Source: Fibrobacterota bacterium (GTDB lineage: Bacteria > Fibrobacterota > Chitinivibrionia > Chitinivibrionales > FEN-1185). From it: 47,871 nt of DNA. The position numbers and the translations under genes are program-made. The stretch covers positions 37,003 to 84,873 of the forward strand of contig PLWQ01000023.1 of assembly GCA_003165595.1 (NCBI GenBank). Reading direction: 5' to 3'. Below, in pieces: positions 19,990 through 45,317 of this stretch (positions within the stretch are counted from its first letter, which is position 1; every line of letters begins with the position of its first letter). Under the pieces are notes generated by a model. The model was not told the origin of the DNA. It made no database searches and was given only the letters and a program-made list of their open reading frames with translations.

Positions 19990-20086
19990 CCGCATGGCAT
20001 GGTTACATCGTATTTTGTGCTTGCGGGCTGTGAACACAGCGCCAATGTCGGGCGCACCCCCTTGTGAAAGAGACCGTGGAGAACAC

Positions 20087-22594
20087 ATGAACGGTGAATA
20101 TCAGGTTCAAACGGACAAGAAAGAGAAGATCAAACTCGATTCCGATATCGTGGAAGCAACATGGCTCTGCGGCGCAGCTCATGGCGGCACCAATGCCGCG
20201 CTCAAGGTGACAACCTACGCCGTCGCCGAACGCTCTTCCATCGAAATAAAGGGTTTCAGTTCAAAGGGCAAAGCGCCCGGTACAATAAAGGGCGAAATTT
20301 ACAACAACGAATTTGCAGGAGAACTGCCGATTCCCGAAAAAGTCGAGCTTGGCGCGCAAATCGGGTTTGAAGCAAAACTTCCCAAGCACGGCCTCAAACA
20401 GGACTGCCAGTTTACCATCCCCGCAATACCGGCCATCCAGGTTTCCAAAATGTGCTGGGACAAAACAGAAGTGCATCGTGGAGACATTGTCACGCTTACC
20501 ACGCAATTTGTCAACCCCCTGCCCGGCGCCCAGGCGCAGATAATTATTTACGAATACGATCCGGACGGTCACCACGAAAAGTATTGCTCGTTTCCCGTGG
20601 AAATTGAGAATGACAAGATTGAAGTCAAGTGGGAGTTTCCATCCACGTACGACGTATCTCAAATCCCGACCGAAGAAGAACGGCAGAAGTATCAGAAGCA
20701 TTATGTGCCGGTGGAGTTTTTCTTTCTGGTGGTCATTGACGGGGTGAGAGTGGGGGAAGGGCAGGAGAGCGGGAAATTAAAATTCAAAGATGCGATTACT
20801 ATTAATTTGACCGACGGAGAGGGAAAAGAATGTGCCGATATAGACTACACGCTTGATGGCCCCGACAATAAGGTGACTAAAGGGAAAAGCGACAAGTCAG
20901 GAACGATAAATGTCAAAGATTTGCCCGCAGGGCCTTATAAACTGAGTTTTGCGGGGATTAGTTTTGCCGCCAAGGTCGGGACCGTGGAGAAAATCGACGG
21001 AAGTTTGGTAACAAGAGTACGCCCAACCGAAAGGATAATCGTGAAATCGGGCGAGCAGTATTCATTTATCGTCACGCTGCCGCATGGAGTTATTGATGGG
21101 CATATGCATACTCAAAGCGGCAAGTGCGCTCCGCTACCGCTGTTATATGCTCCTATTCACGATGCAATTGGTATTAATATCGCGCCCGCGCCGCGCACCT
21201 GGATAGAAAATCTCGCTATGTTCAAAGAGGTTGGCCGGGTGCAAAAACAGGCCGGCGACGCCATCGCGGCCAGGGTTTGCAAGGAAAATGCCAATACTTA
21301 TTCAATTGACGGTAATATTCTTTCCGACGAGCAATATAAAGACTCCGACGAATTTATCTCCATAATGGTATCACAGCCCATGGACATGGATTATGCGCAT
21401 ATTGCCGGTTATCCGCCGGAGAGCAGCCTAATTTATCATGCCGATGGTAACAAAGTTATCTATTACAACCGCATGAAAGCCAACGCTCCAGAGACAAGCG
21501 GGACCATTGTCGATGTATCGCATGAAAGAGTGCTGGACAAACAAAAGAAATATGTATGGCGATTTAAGGATTGGCTTACCCAATACTCGGAATTGCGGTC
21601 AGCTGTGCTTGTAAATCCCTTAAAGATTTTGCCGATGTATAATTACGATCCAAGGCGATGGTCAAAAAGTGAAAGTACAAGAGAAGACCGGGCATGGGTG
21701 TATGGGCCATGGAACCTGCCGTTTAAGGAGATCGCATCAGAAACAACTCCTGGTCTGTTCCTTGGTTTTAAGATGTATCCGCCATTGGGCTATCGTCCTC
21801 TCGACAAAAGGCTTCCTCACCTAGTTGATTTTTACAGCGTTTGTCAACAAAGAAACATACCAATTCTAACGCACTGCTCGCCCGGCGGGATGACCACTCA
21901 TGAGTCCAATTTCTATTGTGAACTCGACAATGTCAAGCTTGACCCTGTTGACGTAATATCCGGCGCAAAGCCCCGTTGCCTTGGCTACAATCCTCATGCT
22001 CCGCTTGGATATTTTTATGACAAATACGTTCATCCCAAGAATTGGAGAGAAGTGCTGTCAATAAACCCCAATTTGCGATTGTGTCTCGCACATTTCGGTG
22101 GCGATGAGTGGAGCAAGGGCGGAGGCGAGGCAAGCGACTGGGTGCAGGAGATAATTGCGCTAACAAAGGAATTCCCTAATGTTTACACCGACGTCGCTTG
22201 CTTTAACCTTGCCCAAGTTAAAGATGCTTTTGGTCGCTTTTTGCGCGAAAACAAATATCCGCATCTAAAGGACAAGTTTCTATTTGGAACCGACTGGTAT
22301 CTTACGCTTCTTGTAATGGGAAAAGGCGATTATAGGGTGTATTGCGAAAATTTCAAAAAATTCTTTGATGGCATTGATAAAAGTTTGTGGACGCGGTTTA
22401 CGCTGCTCAACCCTTATGAATTTTACGGGCTTGGAAACAAAAACAAAATGGAAAAAATGGCCGGCTCTTTAAAAGACGCATTTGACCTCAACAATAAAGA
22501 TAAGAAACAATTCGAAACGAAAATCGACGAAGGAATGGAAAAAATCCTTGGTCTCCAGCATCGGATCGATAAGATAAAGTCGAAGCAGCAATAA
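20087..22594 (+). CDS. Amidohydrolase-like TIM-barrel protein with N-terminal effector-type beta modules
   Basis: An 835-residue protein starting at an ATG with GGAG 5 nt upstream. Residues about 123-190 (WDKTEVHRGDIVTLTTQF, IIYEYDPDGHHEK) resemble the beta-sandwich extensions found after VgrG spikes and in type VI cargo proteins. Residues about 237-290 (ITINLTDGEGKECADIDYTL, GTINVKDLPAGPYKL) are SpaA/transthyretin-like. The C-terminal ~500 residues match amidohydrolases: Asp337-x-His339-x-His341, Lys562, His596 (THCSPGG), His669 (AHFGGDEW) and Asp736 (FGTDWY). No signal peptide is seen. It is AT-richer than its neighbours. The stop overlaps the next start (TAATG). The barrel substrate is unknown. 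Confidence 0.8.
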   Translation: MNGEYQVQTDKKEKIKLDSDIVEATWLCGAAHGGTNAALKVTTYAVAERSSIEIKGFSSKGKAPGTIKGEIYNNEFAGELPIPEKVELGAQIGFEAKLPKHGLKQDCQFTIPAIPAIQVSKMCWDKTEVHRGDIVTLTTQFVNPLPGAQAQIIIYEYDPDGHHEKYCSFPVEIENDKIEVKWEFPSTYDVSQIPTEEERQKYQKHYVPVEFFFLVVIDGVRVGEGQESGKLKFKDAITINLTDGEGKECADIDYTLDGPDNKVTKGKSDKSGTINVKDLPAGPYKLSFAGISFAAKVGTVEKIDGSLVTRVRPTERIIVKSGEQYSFIVTLPHGVIDGHMHTQSGKCAPLPLLYAPIHDAIGINIAPAPRTWIENLAMFKEVGRVQKQAGDAIAARVCKENANTYSIDGNILSDEQYKDSDEFISIMVSQPMDMDYAHIAGYPPESSLIYHADGNKVIYYNRMKANAPETSGTIVDVSHERVLDKQKKYVWRFKDWLTQYSELRSAVLVNPLKILPMYNYDPRRWSKSESTREDRAWVYGPWNLPFKEIASETTPGLFLGFKMYPPLGYRPLDKRLPHLVDFYSVCQQRNIPILTHCSPGGMTTHESNFYCELDNVKLDPVDVISGAKPRCLGYNPHAPLGYFYDKYVHPKNWREVLSINPNLRLCLAHFGGDEWSKGGGEASDWVQEIIALTKEFPNVYTDVACFNLAQVKDAFGRFLRENKYPHLKDKFLFGTDWYLTLLVMGKGDYRVYCENFKKFFDGIDKSLWTRFTLLNPYEFYGLGNKNKMEKMAGSLKDAFDLNNKDKKQFETKIDEGMEKILGLQHRIDKIKSKQQ

Positions 22595-23943
22595 TGATAG
22601 CGATAAAAACCGTTATTGTTCTTGTGCTTGTCTCGCTCGGCATTGCGCCTCGCGGATGCCTGAGCGAGCATATTCCGATAAAGGAAATAAAACAAAACAG
22701 ATTGGAGATACCCGCAATGAAACAACAACTTATTGAGCAATACGGGAAGAACACAGTGGTATTTCCCAACTCAGTTGCAATGGACGAGGAGGTGCACCAT
22801 TTGTTCCCGGTTCCTCGGAAGAATTCGGTGGGAACCAACGACCTCGATAACGCAATAACTTTTCTGGAATTGGGAGATGAATCGGTAAGGCGGCATATCA
22901 TTGCCAGGGATTTTCTGGAGGAGGTAAGCGGCGATTACAAGTTCGGTTTTACACCTGTTTTTTCGCAGGATGAAATCGTTTACACCCAGACACGCGGAAT
23001 GGTGTGCATTAATGCAAAAACCGGCAAAGCTAACCTTTACGATCTTTGCGGAATTCAGGAACAAATAGGCGGAATTGCAGTTATTGATCCGGCAAAAAAG
23101 CTGTTCGTGACGGAATTGTTGCGTCCTTTGGCTCCGGATTATGAGCGATTTCTCCAAGTTATTCAGCCGGTAACCGAAGATTCGGTTAAAGTTATCGGGG
23201 AAGTAGCTGCCGGGATGAAAAAATTCGATTATGGTTCCCCATGGTTTGTCTATCAGGGGAAGTTGTTTGTTTGTGATGATTCGGTTCCAACCATTAAATG
23301 CTTTGATGCCACGTTAACGCCGGCAACCCATATTCTAACGGAAACTTTTAAAAAGGAGAACTGGCGGCTTCTTGGTATTAGCGAAATAGATGTCCATCCC
23401 ACAATGCCTTTTGCATTATTGCTTGCAAGAGGAAAAGACCCGGCCCTGTCCGAATCTCGTTCTGATCTTTCACCTCAGGAGAAAAAAGCGGTTATCGAGT
23501 CCTTGGCAAAAGCCGGGCCGTTTCTTTGGATTCTTCGATGGGACATAGCCGACCCTCAAAAGCAATTGGTTCCCCTGGTGACACATAAAACCAGCCTGTT
23601 GCCCGGAATTCAAGCCGAAGGATCGAAATATGATTCCGAAAAGTTCGTTCAGATTTCATCTTTCGATTTCTCTCCGGACGGTAGGTGGCTTGTTTACCGC
23701 GACAATTCCCGGCTGAATAATACTCCTGGCTCCAACCCTGAAATAGCCGGTCCTGATTTTGTTGCCGTTCCAATTGACAAAAAGTATCCATATTTCCTCG
23801 GTAAACCAATTATTCTTGGGCCGGTGCTTAGGAAATATGAGAAACCGGTAGCTACGGCCTGGGCAACCGACCCAACAACCTTTGTTGTAAGCGACGGCCA
23901 AGTTCTTTATTGGTGGAATTTGGAGAAATTGCCGAGGGGATAA
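22594..23943 (+). CDS. Exported propeller-like unknown protein coupled to the amidohydrolase gene
   Basis: A 449-residue protein with an N-terminal hydrophobic signal (about residues 3-18) followed by Gly-Cys at 21-22. The Cys could be lipidated, although ProArgGly is a poor lipobox. The mature part has repeated short strand patterns and phrases such as ISSFDFSPDGRWLVYRD, ATDPTTFVVSDGQVLYWW and VVFPNSVAMDEE, suggesting a beta-propeller. Its ATG overlaps the stop of the amidohydrolase gene (TAATG), so the two are made together. An effector and a periplasmic partner or immunity protein is one model; a receptor plus enzyme is another. No family is recognised. Confidence 0.75.
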   Translation: MIAIKTVIVLVLVSLGIAPRGCLSEHIPIKEIKQNRLEIPAMKQQLIEQYGKNTVVFPNSVAMDEEVHHLFPVPRKNSVGTNDLDNAITFLELGDESVRRHIIARDFLEEVSGDYKFGFTPVFSQDEIVYTQTRGMVCINAKTGKANLYDLCGIQEQIGGIAVIDPAKKLFVTELLRPLAPDYERFLQVIQPVTEDSVKVIGEVAAGMKKFDYGSPWFVYQGKLFVCDDSVPTIKCFDATLTPATHILTETFKKENWRLLGISEIDVHPTMPFALLLARGKDPALSESRSDLSPQEKKAVIESLAKAGPFLWILRWDIADPQKQLVPLVTHKTSLLPGIQAEGSKYDSEKFVQISSFDFSPDGRWLVYRDNSRLNNTPGSNPEIAGPDFVAVPIDKKYPYFLGKPIILGPVLRKYEKPVATAWATDPTTFVVSDGQVLYWWNLEKLPRG

Positions 23944-24149: not shown

Positions 24150-27100
24150 ATGTATTCCAAGAGTCTTTTCGCCGCGTTGCTGTTTCTGGCGTCACTTTTC
24201 CTTGTACTTTCCTGCTCGCCGACCGAAAGCCCATTCGTAAAAGGAAATGCAACGGTAAATCCAATCCTTTATAATTCCCTGAAGCAGGACAGCGTGAAAA
24301 GTATTTCGGACACGGTGGGCGATACGGTAAAAGTTGGCTTTACCACGTATTTGCCCGACTATATCGATTCCGTTACTGTCTCAATCGGCAATGGCGCCAA
24401 GATTGATACAAGCCATACTTTTGTCAAGAATTCCGTCTGGCCCGATACCGTGTGGATCAAGCTTGCATTCCGGTCCTCAGGTTTGCGAACCGTAACACTT
24501 TTCGCATTTATAGGCGGAACTACAATAACGAAATCCGCGGAAATTACGATTCTGCCTCGACCAATTACAATTTCCGCCGTTACCGCAAGCGCCTCCGTGG
24601 TCCAAGGCGACTCTATTGCCCTTACCGCCACCGTATCCGGCGTCGGACCGTACACCTACAAATGGTTCAAAGACACATCCGTCGTCACAGGTGCATCACT
24701 GTCTTCATACGCGATTCTTAATTTTCAGCCCGTAAATGCCGGCAGCTACACCTGTTTGATAACAGACCAATGGGGTGATACGGCGCGCACGACACCTCCT
24801 ACCGTGCTTGCAATCACGATGCTCCATGCCGTGCCGAAATGGGCGCATGATACGATTCACATTGCGGTGAGCGAAGGATCTGTGGATTCGATAAACCTTG
24901 CCGATTCCTGCATGGTTTCCAACGGCGGATCAATCGTGGCCTACACGCTCAAGAACGGATCAACAATTGCCGATTCGCTGCACGGCTCCGTATGGAAGTA
25001 TGCGCCGATATTTACAGATTCCGGCTCGTACACAATCCGGATTCAGGCGTCAACCGCAACCGATTCGGCCACGCTTACCATGGTGCTGCATGTTGTGAAT
25101 GTAGACCGGCCACCCCAATTTGACGCAGGTAAACCGCTTACGTCTTATGCCGTCAAGGGCGGAGCGATGCTGTCATTTGCCATCAATGCCACGGATCCTG
25201 ATGGCGATTCTGTTTCCTGTTTTATCAAGAGTTCGACGCTTCCGCGCACTGCACCGGTGCTGGCCGCAAAGACTGTTACCTGGCAGTCGGCTACTACCGA
25301 CAGCACCAATGCCGCAATCGTGATAGGCGCGTCGGACGGCCTTGACACAACTTTTATCACGATCCAGGTTGCGGTCGGCAAGGTAAACGCGGCTCCGTCG
25401 CTCGGGGCCCAATACCTGGCGCAGACGGTAGGCAAAGGTCAGACAATCCGTATCTACGAAGGCGACAGCGCCAAGCTCACCTTTTCCGTTACCGATCCGG
25501 ACTCCGGCCAGACACATGTCTTGAGAATTGCCGATAGATCGCCGCTTTCCTGCGGGACCGTGGTGTTCGACAGCGTCAATTACAAATTCATGTTTGTGCC
25601 GTCGTTTAGTTGTGCAACAAAGGACAGTGTTCTTTTGTCAAATATCGCATTTGTCGTGACGGATAATGGCACTCCTCCGCTGTCCGATACGCTCAAGGTC
25701 AACTTTGACGTAATCAACGTGGACAGAGCGCCCGTTCTCATGGTAGTGCATGACACAACCGTATTTCAGAGCAAGCCGCTTAATTTTATGGCGCAGGCAA
25801 TTGACCCTGATAATGATCCGGTGACGATAACCGCATCAGGGCTTGCCACAGCCTCTTTGCCTGATTCCGCAAAGTTCAACCCCAAAACCGGATTGTTTTC
25901 ATGGACTCCCGCGTTCAATCAGACAGGGACGTTTTCCATCGTGTTTTCGGCTTCGGACGGCAACCTTACAGCCAAAGACACTACCACGATTATTGTGAAA
26001 AAAACCGATCGAGCGCCGGTGTTTAATGCGATTCCCGCGACATTGACCGGTGCGGAAGGAAGCGTTCTAAAACAATATGTTAAGGCCACAGATCCCGACG
26101 GAGATGCAGTCACGCTTGCCACTGTAGGCGCGCCCTTTACAAAGGGTGCAACAATTGTAAGCGACACATTATCCTGGACGCCGGGATATTCCGACTCCGG
26201 AACCTATCAGGTGTCTTTTATCGCGTCGGACGGAATTTTGTACGACACCGTAACAATCACCGTAAAAATCGCCAACACCAACAGGCCGCCGGTGGCAACG
26301 GCGCAATCGGTAAATGCGGGCAGGAACACCGCCAAGACGATTATTCTTTCCGCAACCGACCCTGACGGAGACCCGATTGCTCAATTCAAAATTACCAAGG
26401 TTGCATCAAACGGGACCGCAACGTTGTCTGATCAAGTTGCCGGAACTGTCGTCTACACGCCCAACCAAGGGTTCATAGGAGTCGACACATTCTCCTTCAG
26501 CGCTTCGGACGGAACTCTGTGGAGCTTGACGTCTGCAAATGTGACAGTCACGGTCGACTCAAACAAGGTTGCACCTCAAATTACCACAGAACCGCGAATC
26601 GACACTACCATCAATCAAGGCGGTACGTTTACGATTACCGTGGCGACCAACAACGCATTCCCGTCGCCAGCCTATTTGTGGTATCAGGGAATTAAGGGGA
26701 GCGGGACGCTTAAGGGTACAACTTCAAATCCGGTTTATTCCAAAGTTGGCGTTGCAGCGGCAGACTCTGGAAATTACTACGTGATAGTGTCGAATACTTC
26801 CGGGGCGGACACGTCGTCATATTCACACATTACCGTGGATGTCCCGCCGTCAATTGTCACGGGACCCGTCGCTCCGGGGGCAAAGTGTCAAGGAGATTCC
26901 ATAACCTTGGGTGTTACTGCAAGCGGCACGCCGCCGTTGAGTTATCAGTGGCAGCTGGCGGGAAACAATATCACAGGCGCTATCGCCGCGTCCTATCACA
27001 TTGCGAGCATCTCATCGGCTAATGCCGGCATCTACACGTGTGCGGTGAGCAATGTCTGCGGGGCTTCGGCTGCGGCATCAACACAGGGTGTCACATTGAC

Positions 27101-29024
27101 GGTGAACACTGCTTCGACTGCCCCAAATGGCGCAACCGCGAATCCGACAACCATCTGTTCCGGTAGCAGCTCCAGCTTGTCGGTGAATGGCGGGTCACTC
27201 GGTACGGGTGCATCGTGGAAATGGTACACGGATGCGGCATGCTCGATGCCGGTAACGGGAACCAACACCGGGACGCCAATTTCCGTTTCTCCAACGTCAA
27301 ACACCACCTACTACGTACGGGCAGAAGGCGGGTGTGGAAGTACAGCCGCGGCGAGCGCGACTGTTACGCTTAATGCTGCTTCGACTGCCCCCACGAGCGC
27401 AACCGCGAGTCCAACGAATATCTGCAGTGGAGGCACCTCCAGTTTGTCGGTGAATGGCGGCACGCTTGGCTCGGGCGCCACCTGGAAATGGTACACGGAT
27501 GCGGCATGCTCGATTCCGGTAACGGGAAACAACACTGGGACGCCGATTACTGTTTCTCCAACGTCAAATACCACCTATTATGTGCGGGCGGAAGGAACCT
27601 GCGGACCCACTACTGCCGCCAGCGTAACGGTTACATTAAATATCGCGCCCGCCATAACAACGCAGCCTGTTCAGGATAACCTGTGGCCTACTCAGACATC
27701 AGCTTCATTTTCCGTTGCTGGCAGCGGAACAGGGTTAACCTATCAATGGCTAAGACGGCCTCACAACGGAACTCCGGCAAATATTAGCGGCGCCAATTCC
27801 GCCACGTACACGTTTGCGCCCGTAAAAGCCACAAATGATCAAGATAAGTATAGCTGCCAAATAACAAATACGTGCGGGACAATTACGAGCAATGAGGTTC
27901 TGCTGAATTATATCCAGGCAAATTCGGTCGCGCCCGGATATGGCTTCACCCTTTTCCTGTGCACCGACGCAGGCGTTGCTAACGGTGTTTGGGCTGTTGG
28001 AAACAATGCCTTTGGGCAATTGGGAGACGGTACTACAACAAGCAAAAGCGCTCCGGTAAGAGTAATGGCTTCAAGCGGGGTTCCGCTCACAGGTGTAACA
28101 GCGATAGCTGCCGGTGGAAATTTCAGCATGTTCTTGTTGTCCGATGGCTCTGTTTGGACTTGTGGCGACAATTCGTCCGGTCAGTTGGGAATAGGGACAA
28201 CGATAGCGTCCTCTTCCTACCCTGTCAAGGTTACCGGTATCTCCAATGCAATCCACATTGCAGCGGGATACAAGCATAGTGTCTTTCAAACAAGCGATGT
28301 GGCACCGATATATACCTGCGGTGACAATACGTATGGGCAAGGGGGATACGGTTCCCAAGGAATGACCTATTCCCCGATCAACGTAACAGTTAGCACCGCA
28401 TATTTGGCGGGCGGTACGCAAGACAACATTAGTGCTGGTGATTACCACACTGTTGTTTATTCATCTTATGATGCAAAAGCCTATGCATGCGGCCTCAATA
28501 CTTCCGGGCAATTGGGAGATGGAACTACGACTAACCGCACATCTTTTGTGCAAATGCCTCAGATGCCAGGTTACGCCAGTTCTATTGGAACAGGTGCAAA
28601 CCATACTATGGAATATGGATCAAATTATACATGGATGTGCGGCAACAATGCCTCCGGACAACTGGGTAACAATAGTACAGTTTCCGCGAAAACGCCAGTT
28701 GATATTTCATCAAGCCTTTCGGGATACTCCTGGATGGTTTTTGCGGGAGGCTCAAACCACAGTCTTTTTTGGGATAATGCTACAACGCTGATGGCTTGCG
28801 GTGACAACAGCAAAGGTCAACTTGGAATTGGAAGTACGACGAATAGTTTGGTTCCAACCGCCATCAGTTTCACCGGATCGATAGCCCAAGTTGCCGCGAG
28901 ATCAAATTCCTCATTCATTCTTACCACGGACGGAAGGGTTTATGGTTTTGGGGATAACTCCAATGGACAGCTTGGCGACAAGACCACCACCAATCACACT
29001 TCCCCAACCTGGATAACCTGGTAA
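24150..29024 (+). CDS. Giant surface lipoprotein with cadherin/Ig-like domains and an RCC1 propeller
   Basis: A 1624-residue protein with a type II signal peptide; lipobox VLSC predicts lipidation at Cys22. Residues about 130-800 hold Ig-like and cadherin/Ig-HYR-like repeats with calcium-type motifs (TDPDGD, IDPDND). Two further Ig-like domains lie at about 807-985. Two near-identical 89-residue repeats follow at 988-1165, encoded by tandem 267-bp DNA copies. The C-terminal ~365 residues carry seven RCC1-type repeats with the GQLGDGTTT signature, forming a seven-bladed propeller. The layout suggests an adhesin or binding protein on the outer surface. It shares a CRP-type site with the preceding operon. 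Confidence 0.88.
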   Translation: MYSKSLFAALLFLASLFLVLSCSPTESPFVKGNATVNPILYNSLKQDSVKSISDTVGDTVKVGFTTYLPDYIDSVTVSIGNGAKIDTSHTFVKNSVWPDTVWIKLAFRSSGLRTVTLFAFIGGTTITKSAEITILPRPITISAVTASASVVQGDSIALTATVSGVGPYTYKWFKDTSVVTGASLSSYAILNFQPVNAGSYTCLITDQWGDTARTTPPTVLAITMLHAVPKWAHDTIHIAVSEGSVDSINLADSCMVSNGGSIVAYTLKNGSTIADSLHGSVWKYAPIFTDSGSYTIRIQASTATDSATLTMVLHVVNVDRPPQFDAGKPLTSYAVKGGAMLSFAINATDPDGDSVSCFIKSSTLPRTAPVLAAKTVTWQSATTDSTNAAIVIGASDGLDTTFITIQVAVGKVNAAPSLGAQYLAQTVGKGQTIRIYEGDSAKLTFSVTDPDSGQTHVLRIADRSPLSCGTVVFDSVNYKFMFVPSFSCATKDSVLLSNIAFVVTDNGTPPLSDTLKVNFDVINVDRAPVLMVVHDTTVFQSKPLNFMAQAIDPDNDPVTITASGLATASLPDSAKFNPKTGLFSWTPAFNQTGTFSIVFSASDGNLTAKDTTTIIVKKTDRAPVFNAIPATLTGAEGSVLKQYVKATDPDGDAVTLATVGAPFTKGATIVSDTLSWTPGYSDSGTYQVSFIASDGILYDTVTITVKIANTNRPPVATAQSVNAGRNTAKTIILSATDPDGDPIAQFKITKVASNGTATLSDQVAGTVVYTPNQGFIGVDTFSFSASDGTLWSLTSANVTVTVDSNKVAPQITTEPRIDTTINQGGTFTITVATNNAFPSPAYLWYQGIKGSGTLKGTTSNPVYSKVGVAAADSGNYYVIVSNTSGADTSSYSHITVDVPPSIVTGPVAPGAKCQGDSITLGVTASGTPPLSYQWQLAGNNITGAIAASYHIASISSANAGIYTCAVSNVCGASAAASTQGVTLTVNTASTAPNGATANPTTICSGSSSSLSVNGGSLGTGASWKWYTDAACSMPVTGTNTGTPISVSPTSNTTYYVRAEGGCGSTAAASATVTLNAASTAPTSATASPTNICSGGTSSLSVNGGTLGSGATWKWYTDAACSIPVTGNNTGTPITVSPTSNTTYYVRAEGTCGPTTAASVTVTLNIAPAITTQPVQDNLWPTQTSASFSVAGSGTGLTYQWLRRPHNGTPANISGANSATYTFAPVKATNDQDKYSCQITNTCGTITSNEVLLNYIQANSVAPGYGFTLFLCTDAGVANGVWAVGNNAFGQLGDGTTTSKSAPVRVMASSGVPLTGVTAIAAGGNFSMFLLSDGSVWTCGDNSSGQLGIGTTIASSSYPVKVTGISNAIHIAAGYKHSVFQTSDVAPIYTCGDNTYGQGGYGSQGMTYSPINVTVSTAYLAGGTQDNISAGDYHTVVYSSYDAKAYACGLNTSGQLGDGTTTNRTSFVQMPQMPGYASSIGTGANHTMEYGSNYTWMCGNNASGQLGNNSTVSAKTPVDISSSLSGYSWMVFAGGSNHSLFWDNATTLMACGDNSKGQLGIGSTTNSLVPTAISFTGSIAQVAARSNSSFILTTDGRVYGFGDNSNGQLGDKTTTNHTSPTWITW
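27111..27644 (+). repeat. Tandem duplication of a 267-bp coding unit
   Basis: Copies 27111-27377 and 27378-27644 are highly similar at DNA level and encode the 89-residue domains that begin with STAP and contain the WKWYTDAACS and TYYVRAEG signatures. Near identity at silent sites points to recent duplication or gene conversion within the lipoprotein gene. Confidence 0.9.
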
Positions 29025-31998: not shown

Positions 31999-32343
31999 TC
32001 ACACCGCCAGGACAAGCCTAATTCCCTCTTCAACCTCGCTGACAATGTCTTCGGGCAATTTTGTAATCCTATGTGAAAGGTAGCTTTTGTCGATTGTTAC
32101 CAACTGGGAAACGTTTATTACCGAGTCCTTTGGAAGGTGACTTGCACGTTTGGAGAGCAGCACGTTTCCAGGCGCCTGAGAGAGGCGGAGATTGGAGGTA
32201 ATTACGGCGGCAATCACAGTGCTGATCATACTCTGATTGAAATCGTTAGATTGAACAATGAGGACGGGATGACGGTATCCGGGCTCCGATGCCTCGGGAA
32301 TGGGCAAGTTGGCCCACCATATTTCGCCCCGGTGAATTACCAT
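31999..32343 (-). CDS. mazF: MazF/PemK-family mRNA interferase toxin
   Basis: A 114-residue toxin that would cleave mRNA at short sequences. Diagnostic features are the start RGEIWWANLPIP, the RHPVLIVQSNDFN strand with the conserved arginine, and later NVSQLVTIDKSYL with the Ser/Thr-rich active-site strand. It begins within the last codons of the RHH gene (7-nt overlap), the normal antitoxin-toxin order, giving a coupled type II system. Confidence 0.95.
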   Translation of the reverse strand: MVIHRGEIWWANLPIPEASEPGYRHPVLIVQSNDFNQSMISTVIAAVITSNLRLSQAPGNVLLSKRASHLPKDSVINVSQLVTIDKSYLSHRITKLPEDIVSEVEEGIRLVLAV

Positions 32344-36579: not shown

Positions 36580-38265
36580 ATGGATGACCCAAAATCCCCC
36601 ATCGATTCCTTCGACGTCTCTCTCGGCTCAACGCCGCCTTCTCCACCCGTTCCCGGTCGGCTGGATCGCTGGAACATCCTGGTCTGCTCCGACCTCGGGT
36701 TCGCTTCCAAAAAGCCGCAGCAGGTACGCATTGCCGAGTGGAACGAATTCCTGCAATCGCAGCAGGTGGTTCTGTCGGGCACGGCTCAGAATACATTGAC
36801 GGAAGGGAACAAGCCGTTGTACGTTGAGTATCCCGTACGGTCGGCAAAGGATTTTTCCATCGACAGCGTTGAGCAGAATGTCCCCCAGCTCGCGGCCTTT
36901 TCCAAGACGCTTTTTGCGATTCGCCAACTGCTCGACGGCAAGACCGGACAAGCGGACGCGGCAGCCATGATCGCACGGGCGGAACTGCCCGCGCACGAAA
37001 AACAGGTGGTGATGAGCATGCTCGGCTCGGCGCCGCCTGCGGTGCGGCGTAAGGAGCAAAAAACATCGGACGGGACGCCGGTGGACAGAATTCTGTCCAT
37101 GGTGAGCCCTGCTCCGGCTGCCGCTGCGCCTTCCGAGGCCGGGGGCGGCCCCCGGGATCTGGCGGGAGCGCTGGCCGAATCCGTTTCGGGCGCACGGGAC
37201 ACGTTTGACAAAGAGAAACTCCTTGCCTATGCGGATGCGTGCGAAAAAAGGATCAGGGTCCAGGCAGCCGCACTGCAGGATCAGCCGTTTTTTGCCTTGC
37301 GCCGTGCCTCGTGGAACTGCCTCATGACGCTTGCAAGGGTCGTGGGAAGAAAGGCGGAGGCTTCGGTGAGCGTGTTTTCGGCCGAAGCCGACGACATGCC
37401 GCAGCGATTCGCGCAGGTGCTCGGCTGGTGTATGGAGCAGGGATGTTCGCCCGACGTTGTCGTCTGGGACTACGACGTTTCGTTCACAAACGCACATGCC
37501 GAAACAATGGAGACCGTGGCAACGGCCGCGGATCAGTACAAGTGCATGGTGCTGGCACCTGCTTCTCCCGCCGACCCGCTGTTCTCCGGTATTTCCGGCC
37601 GGCAGAGCGTGCAGCACGTGTTCGGCGAGGTGCGATTCCTGCCGTTCAAGAAATTGCGTGAGAATTCGCACGCCAGATGCCTTTGCCTGTGCGCGCCGCC
37701 GCTCGTGCTGTTCGGATCGGCAAACGGCTCGCTCCACGCCAACAGCCGGTCGCCGTGGTATGCGGCCATCAGGTGGACCGAAATGTTGATTTTAGAGAGG
37801 AATCCGGTTGCGGCGCGCGGGCCGCAGCCCGACGCCCAGAGCGTCTTTTCGGGCGGCCCGGTGTTTCTCGACCGCATCGCCCCGTCGGTTGCCGCCGAGG
37901 CCGCGGCCATGGGGCTCACCCTGTTCGGCGAGACGCTCGCGGATGCGACGCTCGACAAAGCCGTTACCGTGGTGTCAACCGAGGCGGTCGACGCAAGTTT
38001 CACCAGCTTTGCATTCAACCTTCTTGTCAATCGTGTGATCCGCCAGTGCGGCCTGCGACTGCTCGCGGCGGCGCCCGGGTCCGCGCGAGCGGATGCCGCC
38101 GCCGCGCTGGGCGACTATGTGCGGCGTGAGTGCGATGAGTGCGGTATTGCCGCAGGCGGCGATGCGGTGAGCGCGGTTGTGCGGGGCGACGGCGCCATTG
38201 CCGTTGCCGTCGATTCCGAAACCACTATTTCCGGACATCCGGTCCGGTTCACGTTTTCATTGTAA
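36580..38265 (+). CDS. Fused TssB-TssC-like contractile sheath protein (type VI secretion family)
   Basis: A 561-residue protein that reads as one sheath subunit with TssB and TssC parts joined. Residues 31-125 follow TssB: WNILVCSDLG, NTLTEGNKPLYVEYPVRS with DFSIDSVEQNVPQL, and LLDGKTG at 117-123, which aligns with YMDGKTG of E. coli TssB. A Pro/Ala/Gly linker (about 176-195) follows. Residues 212-561 follow TssC: EKRIRVQAAALQ, FFALRRASWNCLMTLARVV, PDVVVWDYDVSF, FKKLRENSHARCLCLCAPP (357-374; compare SLRESDDARYVGLAMPR) and a final VRFTFSL strand. The TssC part is about 350 residues rather than about 500. No signal peptide, so cytoplasmic. No other Tss core gene is in the window. First gene of a four-gene cassette. 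Confidence 0.82.
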   Translation: MDDPKSPIDSFDVSLGSTPPSPPVPGRLDRWNILVCSDLGFASKKPQQVRIAEWNEFLQSQQVVLSGTAQNTLTEGNKPLYVEYPVRSAKDFSIDSVEQNVPQLAAFSKTLFAIRQLLDGKTGQADAAAMIARAELPAHEKQVVMSMLGSAPPAVRRKEQKTSDGTPVDRILSMVSPAPAAAAPSEAGGGPRDLAGALAESVSGARDTFDKEKLLAYADACEKRIRVQAAALQDQPFFALRRASWNCLMTLARVVGRKAEASVSVFSAEADDMPQRFAQVLGWCMEQGCSPDVVVWDYDVSFTNAHAETMETVATAADQYKCMVLAPASPADPLFSGISGRQSVQHVFGEVRFLPFKKLRENSHARCLCLCAPPLVLFGSANGSLHANSRSPWYAAIRWTEMLILERNPVAARGPQPDAQSVFSGGPVFLDRIAPSVAAEAAAMGLTLFGETLADATLDKAVTVVSTEAVDASFTSFAFNLLVNRVIRQCGLRLLAAAPGSARADAAAALGDYVRRECDECGIAAGGDAVSAVVRGDGAIAVAVDSETTISGHPVRFTFSL

Positions 38266-38282: not shown

Positions 38283-39266
38283 ATGAAAAGGACTCTTGTG
38301 TCAATTACCGGCGTCGCATGCGTCGTTATGTGCGCCGCTTCCGCGCCCAGAGTCGCCGCAACCGGAGAATTCGTGAACCACACGGTGCGCAAAGGCGAAA
38401 CCGTAAGCCTCATCTGCATCGACTTCTACGGCCACTACCGCGGGGAGCTGGGAAAGGCCGTTGGGAAGGACAACCCGTCGCTCAAGGACATCAACCTCAT
38501 CATTCCCGGCCAGGTGCTTGCGCTGCGCAATCCCGATTACAAGAGTGAAAGAGCAGCAAATGTCAACCCGGTGTTCGAACGCACGGTAAACGCGACGCAG
38601 GGCGTCGTTACCTATGTCGAAGGCGACGCGACCATTCTTGCCAAGGGAGCAAAGGCTCGCCAGAAGCTGACGGCTAACACCATCGTCAACCCGGGCGACG
38701 CGATCGCCACCGCGGAGAACGGCAGGGTCGAGCTTATTGTCAATCGGGAGACCGTGGTCCGGCTTAAGGAGAATACGCACATGACCCTGGAGGCGTTCCG
38801 CGACGCGGGCAAGGATGAGGGAAAAACCAGGTGCGGGTTCAGCCTGGGTTCGGTGTGGACCAAGATGAAGAAGTTCCGCGACAAGGTGAGCCGGTTCGAC
38901 CTCGAGCTCCCCATGGCGATCGCGGGGGTTCACGGCACGGTGTACGAAGCCTCCATTGCAAAGGACAGTTCCTCGGAAGTCAAGGTGTATACCGGCGAAG
39001 TTGCGGTAAAGAACAATCCGGCCGCTCCCCCGGCATCGGCCGGCGAGCCCGGAGAGGTGAGCGGCCCCGGCGAGGTCGAAGGACCGCAGGAAGTAAGCAT
39101 GGACCAGTGGGTGACCATCGTTCACGACATGCAGAAGATCCGCATAGACAAGAAAGGCAAACCGAAGCCGGTTGAAGAGTTCAAAAGGAACGACGCCGAT
39201 TCGTGGGAAAAATGGAACGCAGAACGTGACAAGCGGATAGCGGAACTTTTCGAGGAGAGCGAGTGA
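38283..39266 (+). CDS. Secreted LysM-FecR domain protein
   Basis: A 327-residue protein with a Sec signal peptide (about residues 1-26). A LysM-like domain (residues about 30-82: VNHTVRKGETVSLICIDFYG, IIPGQVLALRN) should bind peptidoglycan. A FecR domain follows (about 100-245: GVVTYVEGDATIL, VNPGDAIATAENGRVELIV, AGVHGTVYEA), then a Gly/Glu/Pro-rich linker and a charged tail. FecR domains are periplasmic sensing or scaffold units. The ATG at 38283 has a G-rich ribosome site and lies 17 nt after the sheath gene; its TGA overlaps the kinase ATG (TGATG). It would link the wall to the membrane kinase. Confidence 0.9.
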   Translation: MKRTLVSITGVACVVMCAASAPRVAATGEFVNHTVRKGETVSLICIDFYGHYRGELGKAVGKDNPSLKDINLIIPGQVLALRNPDYKSERAANVNPVFERTVNATQGVVTYVEGDATILAKGAKARQKLTANTIVNPGDAIATAENGRVELIVNRETVVRLKENTHMTLEAFRDAGKDEGKTRCGFSLGSVWTKMKKFRDKVSRFDLELPMAIAGVHGTVYEASIAKDSSSEVKVYTGEVAVKNNPAAPPASAGEPGEVSGPGEVEGPQEVSMDQWVTIVHDMQKIRIDKKGKPKPVEEFKRNDADSWEKWNAERDKRIAELFEESE

Positions 39267-41668
39267 TGAATCCCAAGAAAGCGGCGGTGCTCGGCATCGG
39301 CACCGTGCTGCTGACGGCGGTGATGTTTTTCAATCCGCTGCGTTTTGTGGAAAACGTATTCTACGACCTCAATTTCGCTTTTGCAAAATCGACCGCCGCG
39401 TGCGATTCGGTGGTTGTGGTGGGCATCGACGCGGAGAGTATCAGCGGCGTGGGCACGTGGCCGTGGCCGCGCGCCGTGATCGCGCAGCTCGTGAGCACGC
39501 TGCAATCGTATTCGCCGCGCGTGGTTGCGCTGGACATCCTGTTTCCGCCCAAACGTGAAGACCCCAGGGGAAACGACAGCCTCGCGCGGACATTTGCAAA
39601 AGTAAACAAGCTTATTCTGCCTTTTCGCGCCACCTTCCGCGCCGGAGACGAAGGCGCGGCCGCAGGCGTTGTTCCGCCGTCGGTCTACAAGCAGCGGTTT
39701 CTCATGGTGACCCACAAGAGCGGGCTCGAAAACGCCACGTTCTTTTCCGCAAACCGGATCGACGCCTCCGACGATGCGTTCACCGCGTCGGCCGCCCAGA
39801 GCGGGGTTATCAACGTCACCACTAATAAAATGGACCAGAAGTTGCGGGAAATCGTGCATGTCATCAAAGCGGGCGACGACTATTATCCGTCGTTCGGGCT
39901 GTGTGCGGTGTCCGCGTACCTGGGCGTGAAGCCCGATGAATTCGTGCTCGACGGAAAACCGCAGGTGAAACTGGGCGAAAGAAGCGTGCCTCTTTCCACG
40001 TACGCGGGGAGCACGCTCATCCGCTACCGCGGACGGTCCGGCACCGTGCGCACCCTGCCCGCGATCAAGGTGCTGCAGGGAGCGGTGGACGCGGCTTCGC
40101 TTCGCGACAAGCTGGTTTTCGTGGGCGTTACCGACGCGCTCGCCGGCGCCGATTTCTTCACCACGCCGGTGGGAGCGCAATTTCCCGGCGTGGAGCTGTG
40201 GGCGACCTCGGCCATGGATATTCTGCAGGGATCGTGGGTGCGGAATCTCACCGGCATTGGTGCATTTGTAAATATCCTGCTCGTCTTCCTCGTGTTCCCG
40301 GGCCTGGCGCTTGTGTTCCCGCCCAAAAGGAAGGCCCTGTACCTGGGGACGGGATTCATGGTTGTCGCGGCCAGCGTTGCAATCGGGTGGTGGCTGTTTT
40401 CGCAGCAGCACCTGTTTTGGAACCCGGGGTATCACGTGTACGCGCTGTTCTTCTCAATTGTCTATGTGGCGGCGCTTACCGGAGCTCCCACGCTTGTGGA
40501 GTCCACGGCGCTGGATTTCGAAGTTCCCGCCGCCGGAGACCGCGATTTCCTGCCGCCGCCCCGTGAAGAGGATTTCATCCGCGAATTGCCGCAGGCCGAA
40601 ACGGCAGCGCACATCGCACACAAGCTGGTTCCGGAATCGGCGCTCGCTGCGCAGCAGCCGGGTGAAACCTTTTCCGGCACCATGGTGGAGGAGCATCTCT
40701 ACGCGTCCAGCAGCGACCCAGCGATGGAGAACGGTCCCGCTGCCGAGACGAATTTACGTTTGTCGCCCGAACAGGCATCGTCCTTTCAGAACCTGGCCGG
40801 CGGAAGGATCGTGAGGCTCCTGGGCAGCGGCGGCATGGCCGACGTGTATCTGGTATGGAACCCGCGGCTCGAAGTGTATCGCGCCGTCAAGGTGATCAAG
40901 CCGGGCCAGCCGTCAAACCTGCTTGCCCGGTTCGAAACCGAAATCCGGATCCTTTCCAAACTCCAGCATCCCAACATTGTGCAGTTTTACAACGTGGGGG
41001 AATGGTATTCTCTTCCGTACATCGAGATGGAATACGTGCCCGGCGCGGCCATGGACGACGTTCAGAAGAAATGCACGGTGCTGAGCCCGCAGGAGACGGC
41101 CGCCGTGGGCATCCTGGTATGCCGAGCGCTCGAATACGCGCACCGCAAGGCGGCCACCATCTACGGAACAACCTACAAAGGCGTCATTCACCGGGACCTC
41201 AAGCCCGCCAATGTGATGCTGTCCAAAAGTGGCCGCGTCAAGCTCACCGATTTCGGCATTGCCCGGCCCCAGGACGTGAGCCTCCACACTATGGATACCG
41301 GCGCCGTTGTGGGAACGCTGCCGTATCTGGCGCCCGAGCAGCTCAGCGGCAAGGACATAACCGCACGCGTCGACACCTACGCGCTCGGCGCAACCCTGTA
41401 CGAATTCCTGAGCGGCCAGCGCACCTTTCCCCAGACCGACATACCGGCGCTTCTCTCCGCAAAATCAACGGGCGAATGCAAGCCGCTGCCGGCGTATGTA
41501 CCCAAGCCGCTTTCGGCGGTTGTGGCCCGGGCAATGTCGGTAAAGGCAGTAGACAGATACGATTCGGCCGCGGCCATGGAACACGATCTGGACCGGGTGC
41601 TGCGGGGCATGGGTACGACGTCGGGGTACGCAATTCTCGAAAGCCTTACGAAACGTTTCTATGCATAA
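39266..41668 (+). CDS. CHASE2-sensor Ser/Thr protein kinase
   Basis: An 800-residue membrane kinase. TM1 lies at about 7-24, then a periplasmic CHASE2 domain (about 25-320: VVVVGIDAESISGVGTWPWP, VVALDILFPP, LVFVGVTDALAGADFFTTPV). Three helices follow at about 325-410, then a linker and a Hanks-type kinase (about 512-790): GSGGMADVYLVWN, AVKVIK (Lys), HRDLKPANVM near 641-651, DFGIARP and LAPEQL. All catalytic residues are present. The ATG at 39266 overlaps the upstream stop; a GTG at 39263 is an alternative. In type VI loci such a kinase (PpkA) phosphorylates an FHA protein; the FHA gene is next. Confidence 0.93.
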   Translation: MNPKKAAVLGIGTVLLTAVMFFNPLRFVENVFYDLNFAFAKSTAACDSVVVVGIDAESISGVGTWPWPRAVIAQLVSTLQSYSPRVVALDILFPPKREDPRGNDSLARTFAKVNKLILPFRATFRAGDEGAAAGVVPPSVYKQRFLMVTHKSGLENATFFSANRIDASDDAFTASAAQSGVINVTTNKMDQKLREIVHVIKAGDDYYPSFGLCAVSAYLGVKPDEFVLDGKPQVKLGERSVPLSTYAGSTLIRYRGRSGTVRTLPAIKVLQGAVDAASLRDKLVFVGVTDALAGADFFTTPVGAQFPGVELWATSAMDILQGSWVRNLTGIGAFVNILLVFLVFPGLALVFPPKRKALYLGTGFMVVAASVAIGWWLFSQQHLFWNPGYHVYALFFSIVYVAALTGAPTLVESTALDFEVPAAGDRDFLPPPREEDFIRELPQAETAAHIAHKLVPESALAAQQPGETFSGTMVEEHLYASSSDPAMENGPAAETNLRLSPEQASSFQNLAGGRIVRLLGSGGMADVYLVWNPRLEVYRAVKVIKPGQPSNLLARFETEIRILSKLQHPNIVQFYNVGEWYSLPYIEMEYVPGAAMDDVQKKCTVLSPQETAAVGILVCRALEYAHRKAATIYGTTYKGVIHRDLKPANVMLSKSGRVKLTDFGIARPQDVSLHTMDTGAVVGTLPYLAPEQLSGKDITARVDTYALGATLYEFLSGQRTFPQTDIPALLSAKSTGECKPLPAYVPKPLSAVVARAMSVKAVDRYDSAAAMEHDLDRVLRGMGTTSGYAILESLTKRFYA

Positions 41669-41689
41669 CCTTATTTCCGTGTGAGTGAC

Positions 41690-43354
41690 ATGAGCTACTA
41701 TTATCTGGAAGTAATTCGGGGTGTGGAAATCGGGCGACGCTATCTTCTGAGCGACGGTGCGATAAGCGTGGGAAGGAGTTCGCAGAACACGGTGCCGCTG
41801 CATCCGGGGGAAAAGAGCGTGTCCGGCCACCACGCAATTATTTACAAAAGCGGCGATCGCATAAGCCTGCAGGACCTGGAAAGCACCAACGGTACCTTTG
41901 TCAACGAACAGCTCACAACCGAGTGCGAACTTTCGGTGGGAGACGTGGCGGGATTCGGCAAGACGGGGCCACGGCTCAAGCTTGTGGTGTCCGACAAAGA
42001 ACTTCCTCTCGATGGAGGGAAAGCCCAGATTGCCTCGGCCGACTCCACAAGCATCCGCACCGTGGAAGACGAGCTGCAGCACTTTGCAAACAGGGATGCG
42101 CCCGAGACTACGGGCAAGGAAGACCTGAATCTCATTACCAAGGTACGCCTCAGGCTGCCCAAGGATTCCGAGGGCCTGCAGAATCCCTCGTACACCATGC
42201 AGATGGAAAAGAAGATCCTCGAAAAGAAGCTCGGCGCCAGCGACATGCACGATCTCATGCGGGACGGCAAGCGGCTGGAGAAGATAATCGACCGCGGGAA
42301 TATCGGCGCGACGCAGGCATCCATGCTGCGTACCGTGCGCGTGGCCCACAAGCGGTCCAATAAGCAGTGGTTTGTCGTTTTGGGATGCGTGGTGGCGGTG
42401 TCGGTGCTTGCGATTTCTTTTTTCGCAATAAGAGCCTCTCAATACAAGTCGCTGCTGTCAAAGGGAATGTCGCTGCGGGCCACTCTCGATTCGTACGAGT
42501 CCCAGATCGCCGAAGCGAACAAGGACCCGGACGCCAACAAGCGGCGGCTCGATTCGCTCATCAGCGAGCTCGACAAGGCCAAGAAGCAGCTTGCGTCTGT
42601 AAAGCAAGACGTGCGCCAGAACGACTACGGCAAATTCTACTCCGACCCCATGGAGAAGACCATCGACGAGGTGCTGATGCGCTTCGGCGAGACCGATTAC
42701 CACATCCCCAAGGAAATGGTCGCCCGCGTCAAGTATCATATTTCGGTGTATTCGGGCGGCCTGCACAGCACCATTGCCAAGTATGTGGGCCGCAAGGAGA
42801 AGTATTTCCCCATGATCCGCCGCATATTCCGCGAGAACCAGCTGCCCGAAGACCTGGCCTACGTCTCGATGCTCGAAAGCGGGTTCAACCCGCGCGCGCT
42901 GTCGCACGTGGGTGCGCGCGGCATGTGGCAGTTCATGCCGGAAACCGGCAGGCGGTACGGGCTCCGGGTCGACGCCACCGTTGATGAACGGTGCGATCCC
43001 GACAAAGCAACCGCGGCCGCCGCAAAGTACTTCCGGGAACTCATCGCCATTTTCGGCGGCCAGAGTTCGGTGATGCTGGCCATGGCGGCCTACAACGCCG
43101 GCGAGGGCAGGATCGTGGGCGCGCTCCGGAAAATCGACAACCCGATGCGGAACCGCGATTTCTGGTACATTTACAGAATGGGATATCTTGCCGAGGAAAC
43201 GAACGAGTACATACCGCGCGTGATGGCACTGCTCATTATTTCGGAGCACCCGGACCAGTACGGATTTACCCAGGTGCCCGCAGCCCCGCCCGAGACCGCC
43301 GATGCGGAGAACGATTTTATTCCGCTTGACAATATCAAGAATCCGGGCAGGTAG
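41690..43354 (+). CDS. FHA domain - transmembrane - lytic transglycosylase fusion
   Basis: A 554-residue protein. An N-terminal cytoplasmic FHA domain (about 20-100: ISVGRSSQNTV, SVSGHHAIIY, LQDLESTNGTFVN) binds phosphothreonine. A charged linker, one transmembrane helix (about 225-246) and a coiled coil lead to a periplasmic SLT lytic transglycosylase (about 370-500). Its catalytic Glu396 is in MLESGFNP, with ARGMWQFMPETG and AYNAGEGRI as supporting motifs. A GTG at 41681 is an alternative start. The order couples phospho-signals from the neighbouring kinase to local wall cleavage across the membrane. Such one-chain FHA-SLT fusions are unusual. Confidence 0.92.
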   Translation: MSYYYLEVIRGVEIGRRYLLSDGAISVGRSSQNTVPLHPGEKSVSGHHAIIYKSGDRISLQDLESTNGTFVNEQLTTECELSVGDVAGFGKTGPRLKLVVSDKELPLDGGKAQIASADSTSIRTVEDELQHFANRDAPETTGKEDLNLITKVRLRLPKDSEGLQNPSYTMQMEKKILEKKLGASDMHDLMRDGKRLEKIIDRGNIGATQASMLRTVRVAHKRSNKQWFVVLGCVVAVSVLAISFFAIRASQYKSLLSKGMSLRATLDSYESQIAEANKDPDANKRRLDSLISELDKAKKQLASVKQDVRQNDYGKFYSDPMEKTIDEVLMRFGETDYHIPKEMVARVKYHISVYSGGLHSTIAKYVGRKEKYFPMIRRIFRENQLPEDLAYVSMLESGFNPRALSHVGARGMWQFMPETGRRYGLRVDATVDERCDPDKATAAAAKYFRELIAIFGGQSSVMLAMAAYNAGEGRIVGALRKIDNPMRNRDFWYIYRMGYLAEETNEYIPRVMALLIISEHPDQYGFTQVPAAPPETADAENDFIPLDNIKNPGR

Positions 43355-44336: not shown

Positions 44337-45317
44337 ATGAAACACGCGCCTTCATACACGTTTTTGTCCCCATCGGACTGGGACGAACGCATCGCGGCCG
44401 CGGACGATCTGGCCTCGCCGTGCATGCTGTGCCCGCGCGCGTGCCGCGTCGACAGGCGGGAAGGCCGTACGGGGTATTGCCGTGCAGGGAACGAGCTTTA
44501 CATTTCGAGCATTTTCCCGCATCACGGCGAGGAACCGCCCATTTCCGGCACTCGCGGCTCGGGCACGGTTTTCTTCTCTCATTGTTCGCTGCGGTGCTGC
44601 TTCTGCCAGAATTTCCAGATATCGCAGGAGAGTGAGGGCGAGCCGTACACGGTGGAACGGCTCGCTCTCAAGCTGCTCGATTTGCAGGGAGCAGGCGTGC
44701 ACAATGTCAATCTCGTGACGGGCACGCATTACCTGCCCCGGATCCTGCGCGCGCTTCGGGATGCCGCCGGCCGCGGGCTTGCGATTCCCCTTGTGTGGAA
44801 CTCCAGCGGCTATGAGCGTGCGGAGGCGCTCTCTCCGCTCAAAGGCGTGGTGGACGTGTATCTGCCGGACATGAAATACGGTTCCAATGAATCGTCACAG
44901 CGCTACTGCAAAGCGCCGGATTATGTGGAGGTCAACCGGTCCGCGATCCGCGAAATGTTCAGGCAGGTAGGGCCCCTCAAAACCGACGGCAGCGAGATTG
45001 CCTTTCGGGGAATGTGCATCCGTCATCTTGTATTGCCCGAGGGAAGGGCGCATTCGGGCTTGGTGTTTGAATTTCTCCGCTCCACATTTGATGCGGCGGA
45101 CATCACGCTCAGTCTTATGGCGCAATTCCGACCGATGTACCGGGCAGGGGAGTTCCCCGAACTTTCGCGCGGTATCAATCGCGGCGAGTACGAGACTGCG
45201 CTGGAGGAAGCCGAAGCCTCGGGATTCAACGTCTTTCCTCAGGATCTGCTCAGGCTCGACGACAGCTTCTGCATCGATTTTGCAACGAGAAAGCATGAGC
45301 CGTTGACAGGCAGGTAA
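44337..45317 (+). CDS. Radical SAM protein, PflA-like
   Basis: A 326-residue radical SAM enzyme. The cluster-binding motif is CSLRCCFCQN (Cys83, Cys87, Cys90; CxxxCxxC). Four further cysteines near the N terminus (29, 32, 36, 48; CMLCPRAC...YC) resemble the conserved Cys-rich start of the 'putative pyruvate formate-lyase activating enzyme' family (COG1313). Downstream motifs are LVTGTHYLP and VDVYLPDMKYG. No glycyl radical enzyme lies nearby, so its target is unknown. Members of this family are widespread as orphans. Confidence 0.88.
   Translation: MKHAPSYTFLSPSDWDERIAAADDLASPCMLCPRACRVDRREGRTGYCRAGNELYISSIFPHHGEEPPISGTRGSGTVFFSHCSLRCCFCQNFQISQESEGEPYTVERLALKLLDLQGAGVHNVNLVTGTHYLPRILRALRDAAGRGLAIPLVWNSSGYERAEALSPLKGVVDVYLPDMKYGSNESSQRYCKAPDYVEVNRSAIREMFRQVGPLKTDGSEIAFRGMCIRHLVLPEGRAHSGLVFEFLRSTFDAADITLSLMAQFRPMYRAGEFPELSRGINRGEYETALEEAEASGFNVFPQDLLRLDDSFCIDFATRKHEPLTGR

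Follow-up and report, generated by a model that had tools for sequence, protein, structure and literature searches.

A phosphothreonine reader fused to a lytic transglycosylase in Fibrobacterota probably opens the wall for T6SS assembly

The stretch of Fibrobacterota DNA analysed here, 47,871 nucleotides long and called the window throughout, holds a gene whose product joins an FHA domain to a lytic transglycosylase, raising the question of which process would need a phosphothreonine reader and a wall cutter in one chain. The first-pass annotation had read this fusion as a direct route from kinase activity to local wall cleavage. The gene, referred to below as FHA-SLT, has the following parts.

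41690..43354, + strand: FHA-TM-SLT protein, 554 amino acids (open reading frame, Pfam, family alignment, AF2)
41762..41959, + strand: FHA domain, Pfam span (Pfam, family alignment, Foldseek)
42368..42430, + strand: single transmembrane helix, about residues 227-247, N-terminus in (hydrophobicity)
42440..42625, + strand: heptad-periodic helical (coiled-coil-like) stretch, residues 251-312 (3.5-residue periodicity, AF2 helices)
42833..43129, + strand: SLT (lytic transglycosylase) domain, MltD-type (Pfam, hmmsearch, Foldseek)
42875..42877, + strand: codon of catalytic Glu396, in MLESGFNP (sequence, family alignment)

The reading frame is unbroken from the ATG at 41690 to 43354, with a GTG in the same frame 9 bases before the ATG, at 41681; since the family alignment begins at the methionine of the ATG (MSYYYLEV...), the start originally assigned is the correct one. 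In the numbering of the GTG frame, Pfam places the FHA domain at residues 28-93 (1.9e-14) and the SLT domain at residues 385-483 (7.1e-25), the order along the chain being FHA, a low-complexity linker, one transmembrane helix, a heptad-periodic helix and the MltD-type SLT. The hydrophobic helix has a mean Kyte-Doolittle value of 2.8, and the 25 residues before it carry five positive and no negative charges, which places the N-terminus in the cytoplasm, while the sharp 3.5-residue periodicity of residues 251-312 is consistent with a coiled coil. The AF2 model begins with an FHA sandwich predicted with confidence and continues with a disordered linker (110-167), a long helix (207-276) running through the membrane, a second helix (284-312) and the SLT fold; its pTM is only 0.43, and the mutual arrangement of the domains is not fixed by it. 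Searched with Foldseek, the model retrieved MltD (8rhf, 4e-9) and FHA domains (3po8 and others), and hmmsearch matched the SLT domain to the MltD structure 8rhe at 2e-32. The protein scored 106 bits against the NCBIfam MltD equivalog NF008050, below its 508-bit cut-off, and 30 bits, in the N-terminal region only, against NCBIfam TagH (TIGR03354), whose cut-off is 120 bits.

Both domains retain the residues on which their activities would depend. Glu396 is invariant across the family and aligned with the glutamate that MltD and Slt have in their ES motif, and the AAYNAGE motif is likewise invariant in the alignment. With the SLT fold, the ES-motif glutamate and the AYNAG motif that mark lytic transglycosylase family 1 (SLT/MltD type) all present, FHA-SLT is a predicted member of this family with its catalytic residue intact. 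In the FHA domain, Arg29, Ser45, His48 and Asn67 (GR, SxxH and NG motifs) are invariant; such an Arg/Ser/His/Asn set on this fold is the mark of phosphothreonine binding, the Foldseek matches are themselves phosphothreonine-binding FHA domains, and the domain is thus a predicted phosphothreonine reader with its binding residues intact. In all these respects, namely the fusion in one membrane-spanning chain, the single helix and coiled coil between its domains and the intact Glu396, the first-pass annotation was borne out.

The fusion is also a real and conserved gene. Full-length relatives at 45-77% identity occur all through the order of the host, and a scan of the phylum found the fusion in 39 of 168 Fibrobacterota genomes, with scores far above those of plain MltD. 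The prospect, raised at the outset, that a sequencing frameshift or a misassembly had joined two separate genes is ruled out, the architecture being full length in more than 30 genomes. To the nearest relative, dN is 0.15 and dS 1.06 (a ratio of about 0.15), indicating purifying selection, with constraint strongest in the SLT domain (dN 0.09). Outside Fibrobacterota, the best among the matches listed were plain MltD-type proteins without FHA. Separate MltD-like genes exist all through the phylum and serve housekeeping there.

In the window, FHA-SLT closes an operon of four genes with a common orientation, spaced 17, -4 and 21 bases apart; three genes come before it.

36580..38265, + strand: fused TssB/TssC sheath-like protein, 561 amino acids (Pfam, hhalign, Foldseek)
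38283..39266, + strand: exported FecR-domain protein with a LysM-like N-terminal region (Pfam FecR 2.9e-9; LysM match 1.6e-4), its frame open from 38139
39263..41668, + strand: CHASE2 sensor and Ser/Thr protein kinase, 801 amino acids (Pfam, motifs)

The kinase has its Lys, HRD and DFG motifs intact and its gene ends 21 bp upstream of FHA-SLT. Of 38 loci, 20 have a kinase gene no more than 5 kb from FHA-SLT; the other 18 have none at this distance, a point against the reading preferred below. At L069 and L079 neither a kinase nor a T6SS gene is close by. These kinases come in at least two configurations, one with CHASE2 and one without CHASE2 but with PEGA and, in some cases, DUF2169. A DUF2169 gene was seen adjacent to FHA-SLT or a few kb from it at four loci (L056, L068, L194 and L196; here and below, codes in G, L, f and g denote genomes, loci, families and genera of the 168-genome sample), and a radical SAM protein encoded downstream (44337-45317) is kept in 12 loci, the window included.

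The only T6SS linkage of FHA-SLT within the window is the TssB/TssC-like gene. Its product matches VipA (1.1e-6) and VipB (1.8e-3) in Pfam and aligns by hhalign to TssB and then to the N-terminal domain of TssC, and the seven best Foldseek matches of its AF2 model (pLDDT 66) are T6SS sheaths; no VipB_2 C-terminal domain was recognisable in it. This protein could be a sheath regulator. Its gene lies outside the core T6SS cluster, and roughly a dozen genomes in the order have weak TssB-profile matches in long open reading frames (550-640 amino acids). The T6SS of the host is encoded on contig 41 (TssA, TssB, TssC and Hcp) and on contig 39, where TssK, TssL and TssM are accompanied by a second Ser/Thr kinase and a PEGA protein.

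Other parts of the window hold a low-GC stretch at 19994-23943 (0.45-0.49 against about 0.58), which encodes an 866-amino acid protein with an Amidohydro_2-like C-terminal domain and, after a one-base overlap, a 449-amino acid protein for which Pfam gave no match; the pair might be a T6SS effector and its partner. Positions 24150-29024 encode a surface-type protein of 1624 amino acids that has Ig/cadherin-like repeats and ends in an RCC1 propeller, and a MazF/PemK-type toxin gene lies at 31999-32343 on the minus strand.

Across the 168 genomes, we counted as tssB-positive those with a true TssB, leaving out genomes that matched through the fused TssB/TssC-like protein alone. By this count tssB is present in 50 genomes, comprising 36 of the 39 carriers of FHA-SLT versus 14 of the 129 non-carriers, and FHA-SLT is absent from 115 of the 118 TssB-negative genomes (Fisher p about 1e-21, computed without phylogenetic correction). 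The three carriers without a true TssB (G002, G015 and G028) are all fragmented assemblies, two of them less than 80% complete. The 14 TssB-positive genomes without the fusion, 12 from one family and two from another, indicate that FHA-SLT is not universally needed for T6SS and that T6SS in other lineages must get across the wall by other means. Shared ancestry alone is argued against by contrasts within genera, where G035 has FHA-SLT and TssB and G030 neither, and G036 has both and G010 neither, as well as by family f11, in which genus g40 carries both and genus g28 neither. T6SS has been named as a trait of Chitinispirillum that is not found in Chitinivibrio (PMC4814513).

Physical linkage points the same way. 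A core T6SS gene lies within 10 kb of FHA-SLT in 10 of 38 loci, whereas at most a few percent would be expected by chance, as estimated roughly from the sizes of genomes and clusters. Five genomes (L055, L056, L057, L059 and L066) have the gene at the border of a T6SS operon, 160-766 bp away from either hcp or tssA. These operons contain tssB, tssC, hcp, tssF and tssG, and most of them tssE, tssH and tssM as well; the gene identities in the operon of G025 were confirmed by Pfam. At linked loci FHA-SLT is often divergent from tssA or hcp, and at L052 the FecR, kinase and FHA-SLT genes together diverge from tssA-tssB-tssC-hcp. At three further loci (L190, L194 and L076) it lies 122-343 bp from tssM, and G026, G037 and G012 have a second, divergent T6SS with its own FHA-SLT beside tssM. 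L190 (G026), L194 (G037), and L195 and L076 (G012) represent this second T6SS lineage of the order, and at L190 two large Ser/Thr kinases adjoin the second system. The clade of G012 with the second copies of G026 and G037 is recovered with a support of 1.0 in the tree of TssB as well as in that of FHA-SLT, indicating that each type of T6SS is accompanied by an FHA-SLT of its own. Genomes that have two T6SSs also carry two FHA-SLT genes, and most genomes have one FHA-SLT copy per T6SS. The rule is not strict in family f11 genus g40, in which six genomes have one tssB match each, since two of them (G164 and G160; L191, L192, L214 and L215) carry two FHA-SLT paralogues. Taken together, the genomic evidence supports well that FHA-SLT is dedicated to T6SS.

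What FHA-SLT would do for, or apart from, T6SS can be read in several ways. As a kinase-controlled general wall remodeller, acting in growth, division or turnover and unrelated to T6SS, it would fit the CHASE2-kinase and LysM-FecR genes that adjoin it in the window, its MltD-like SLT, which is a housekeeping fold, and its position away from core T6SS genes in most main-clade genomes, the host of the window included. Such a role is nevertheless unlikely, because the gene is missing from nearly all T6SS-negative genomes, sister species of carriers among them, is found in or near T6SS operons at ten loci and is duplicated along with a second T6SS, while the phylum has its separate MltD-like genes for housekeeping. 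Alternatively, the FHA domain may be the main part of a T6SS scaffold equivalent to Fha/TagH, with the SLT mainly an anchor in peptidoglycan: none of the other FHA matches of the host lies on its T6SS contigs 41 and 39, the FHA residues are invariant, and lytic transglycosylases can be wall anchors, as reported for AgmT (PMC11444678). Against this, the invariant Glu396 and AAYNAGE motif and the lowest dN falling in the SLT suggest that catalysis is under selection, and we hold the scaffold to be quite improbable.

T6SS lytic-transglycosylase effectors exist (PMC10433429) and the gene is found in T6SS loci, so that FHA-SLT could also be thought of as a toxin for other cells, with FHA serving for loading or control. 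The protein, however, is anchored by a transmembrane helix with its FHA domain in the cytoplasm, has no PAAR, VgrG or Hcp fusion, is strongly conserved across species at the dN/dS given above, is present in one copy per T6SS in most genomes, and lacks a conserved small immunity gene among its neighbours at the compared loci, all of which make an effector very hard to credit. The reading that we consider probable is that FHA-SLT is a T6SS-dedicated lytic transglycosylase, anchored in the inner membrane and targeted by its FHA domain, and that it opens the wall so that T6SS can assemble. Of the kinase-to-wall-cleavage route first proposed, the conserved fusion, the intact residues and the adjacent kinase gene all stand, whereas the link to T6SS had been missed, and the proposed cleavage is now better understood as wall opening for assembly of that machine.

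In the mechanism that we propose for wall opening by FHA-SLT, the LysM-FecR protein would sense the state of the wall or envelope, and the CHASE2 kinase would respond to the envelope signal by phosphorylating threonine, either in itself or in a T6SS protein of the inner membrane or baseplate. Through this phosphothreonine the FHA domain would dock FHA-SLT at the T6SS assembly site, where the periplasmic SLT could cut glycan strands locally, so that the TssJLM/sheath machine would cross the wall and assemble. The phosphorylation target, the recruitment and the order of steps are as we infer them, phospho-dependent docking being suggested by the FHA residues and the neighbouring genes. Since a disordered linker and one transmembrane helix separate reader and enzyme, recruitment is more plausible than allosteric switching. 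We also entertain, tentatively, the larger possibility of a closed trans-envelope loop that licenses T6SS, in which LysM-FecR would sense the wall, the CHASE2 kinase would mark a T6SS protein and FHA-SLT would open the wall at that place, with the TssB/TssC-like protein perhaps acting as a gauge of sheath status.

How T6SS passes through its own wall is known in few systems, those of MltE, via TssM, and TagX, and on our best reading FHA-SLT would work like one of these, fused to an Fha-like reader. In other phyla, assembly of T6SS requires that the wall be opened locally (PMC10433429, PMC5061870). As reviewed in PMC10433429, MltE of enteroaggregative E. coli is recruited and stimulated by TssM and is needed for passage of the T6SS membrane complex through the wall, and so it resembles FHA-SLT, in the role proposed for the latter, in being a lytic transglycosylase for T6SS wall crossing; MltE, however, is a housekeeping enzyme, whereas FHA-SLT is restricted to T6SS, spans the inner membrane and has an FHA domain. 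TagX of Acinetobacter is a wall-cutting enzyme that is encoded with a T6SS and without which this T6SS is not built (PMC5061870) but, unlike FHA-SLT, an endopeptidase without FHA or a transglycosylase fold. MltD is the closest enzyme fold to the SLT domain and yet differs in that it lacks both an FHA domain and a cytoplasmic part and, as a rule, carries LysM repeats. On the side of the reader, Fha binds phospho-TssL in Agrobacterium, and threonine phosphorylation can gate T6SS assembly (PMC10433429). Fha/TagH with PpkA/PppA resembles the operon of the window in placing an FHA protein and a Ser/Thr kinase at T6SS. We know of no Fha/TagH protein fused to an enzyme.

Wall cutters dedicated to other envelope-spanning machines include VirB1 (T4SS), EtgA (T3SS) and FlgJ (flagellum) (PMC5061870). 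No description of a fusion of FHA and transglycosylase tied to T6SS was found in the literature searched, which reached few subscription journals. To our knowledge, VirB1, EtgA and FlgJ have no phosphothreonine reader and do not serve T6SS. FHA-SLT would bring together local wall opening and the control of T6SS assembly by phosphorylation, two processes so far investigated separately, and with reader and cutter on one chain the question can be tested with a single protein. If our reading is true, one polypeptide merges the phospho-control of Fha with the wall opening of MltE or TagX, and, together with the fused TssB/TssC-like protein, it suggests that Fibrobacterota have a set of T6SS components peculiar to them.
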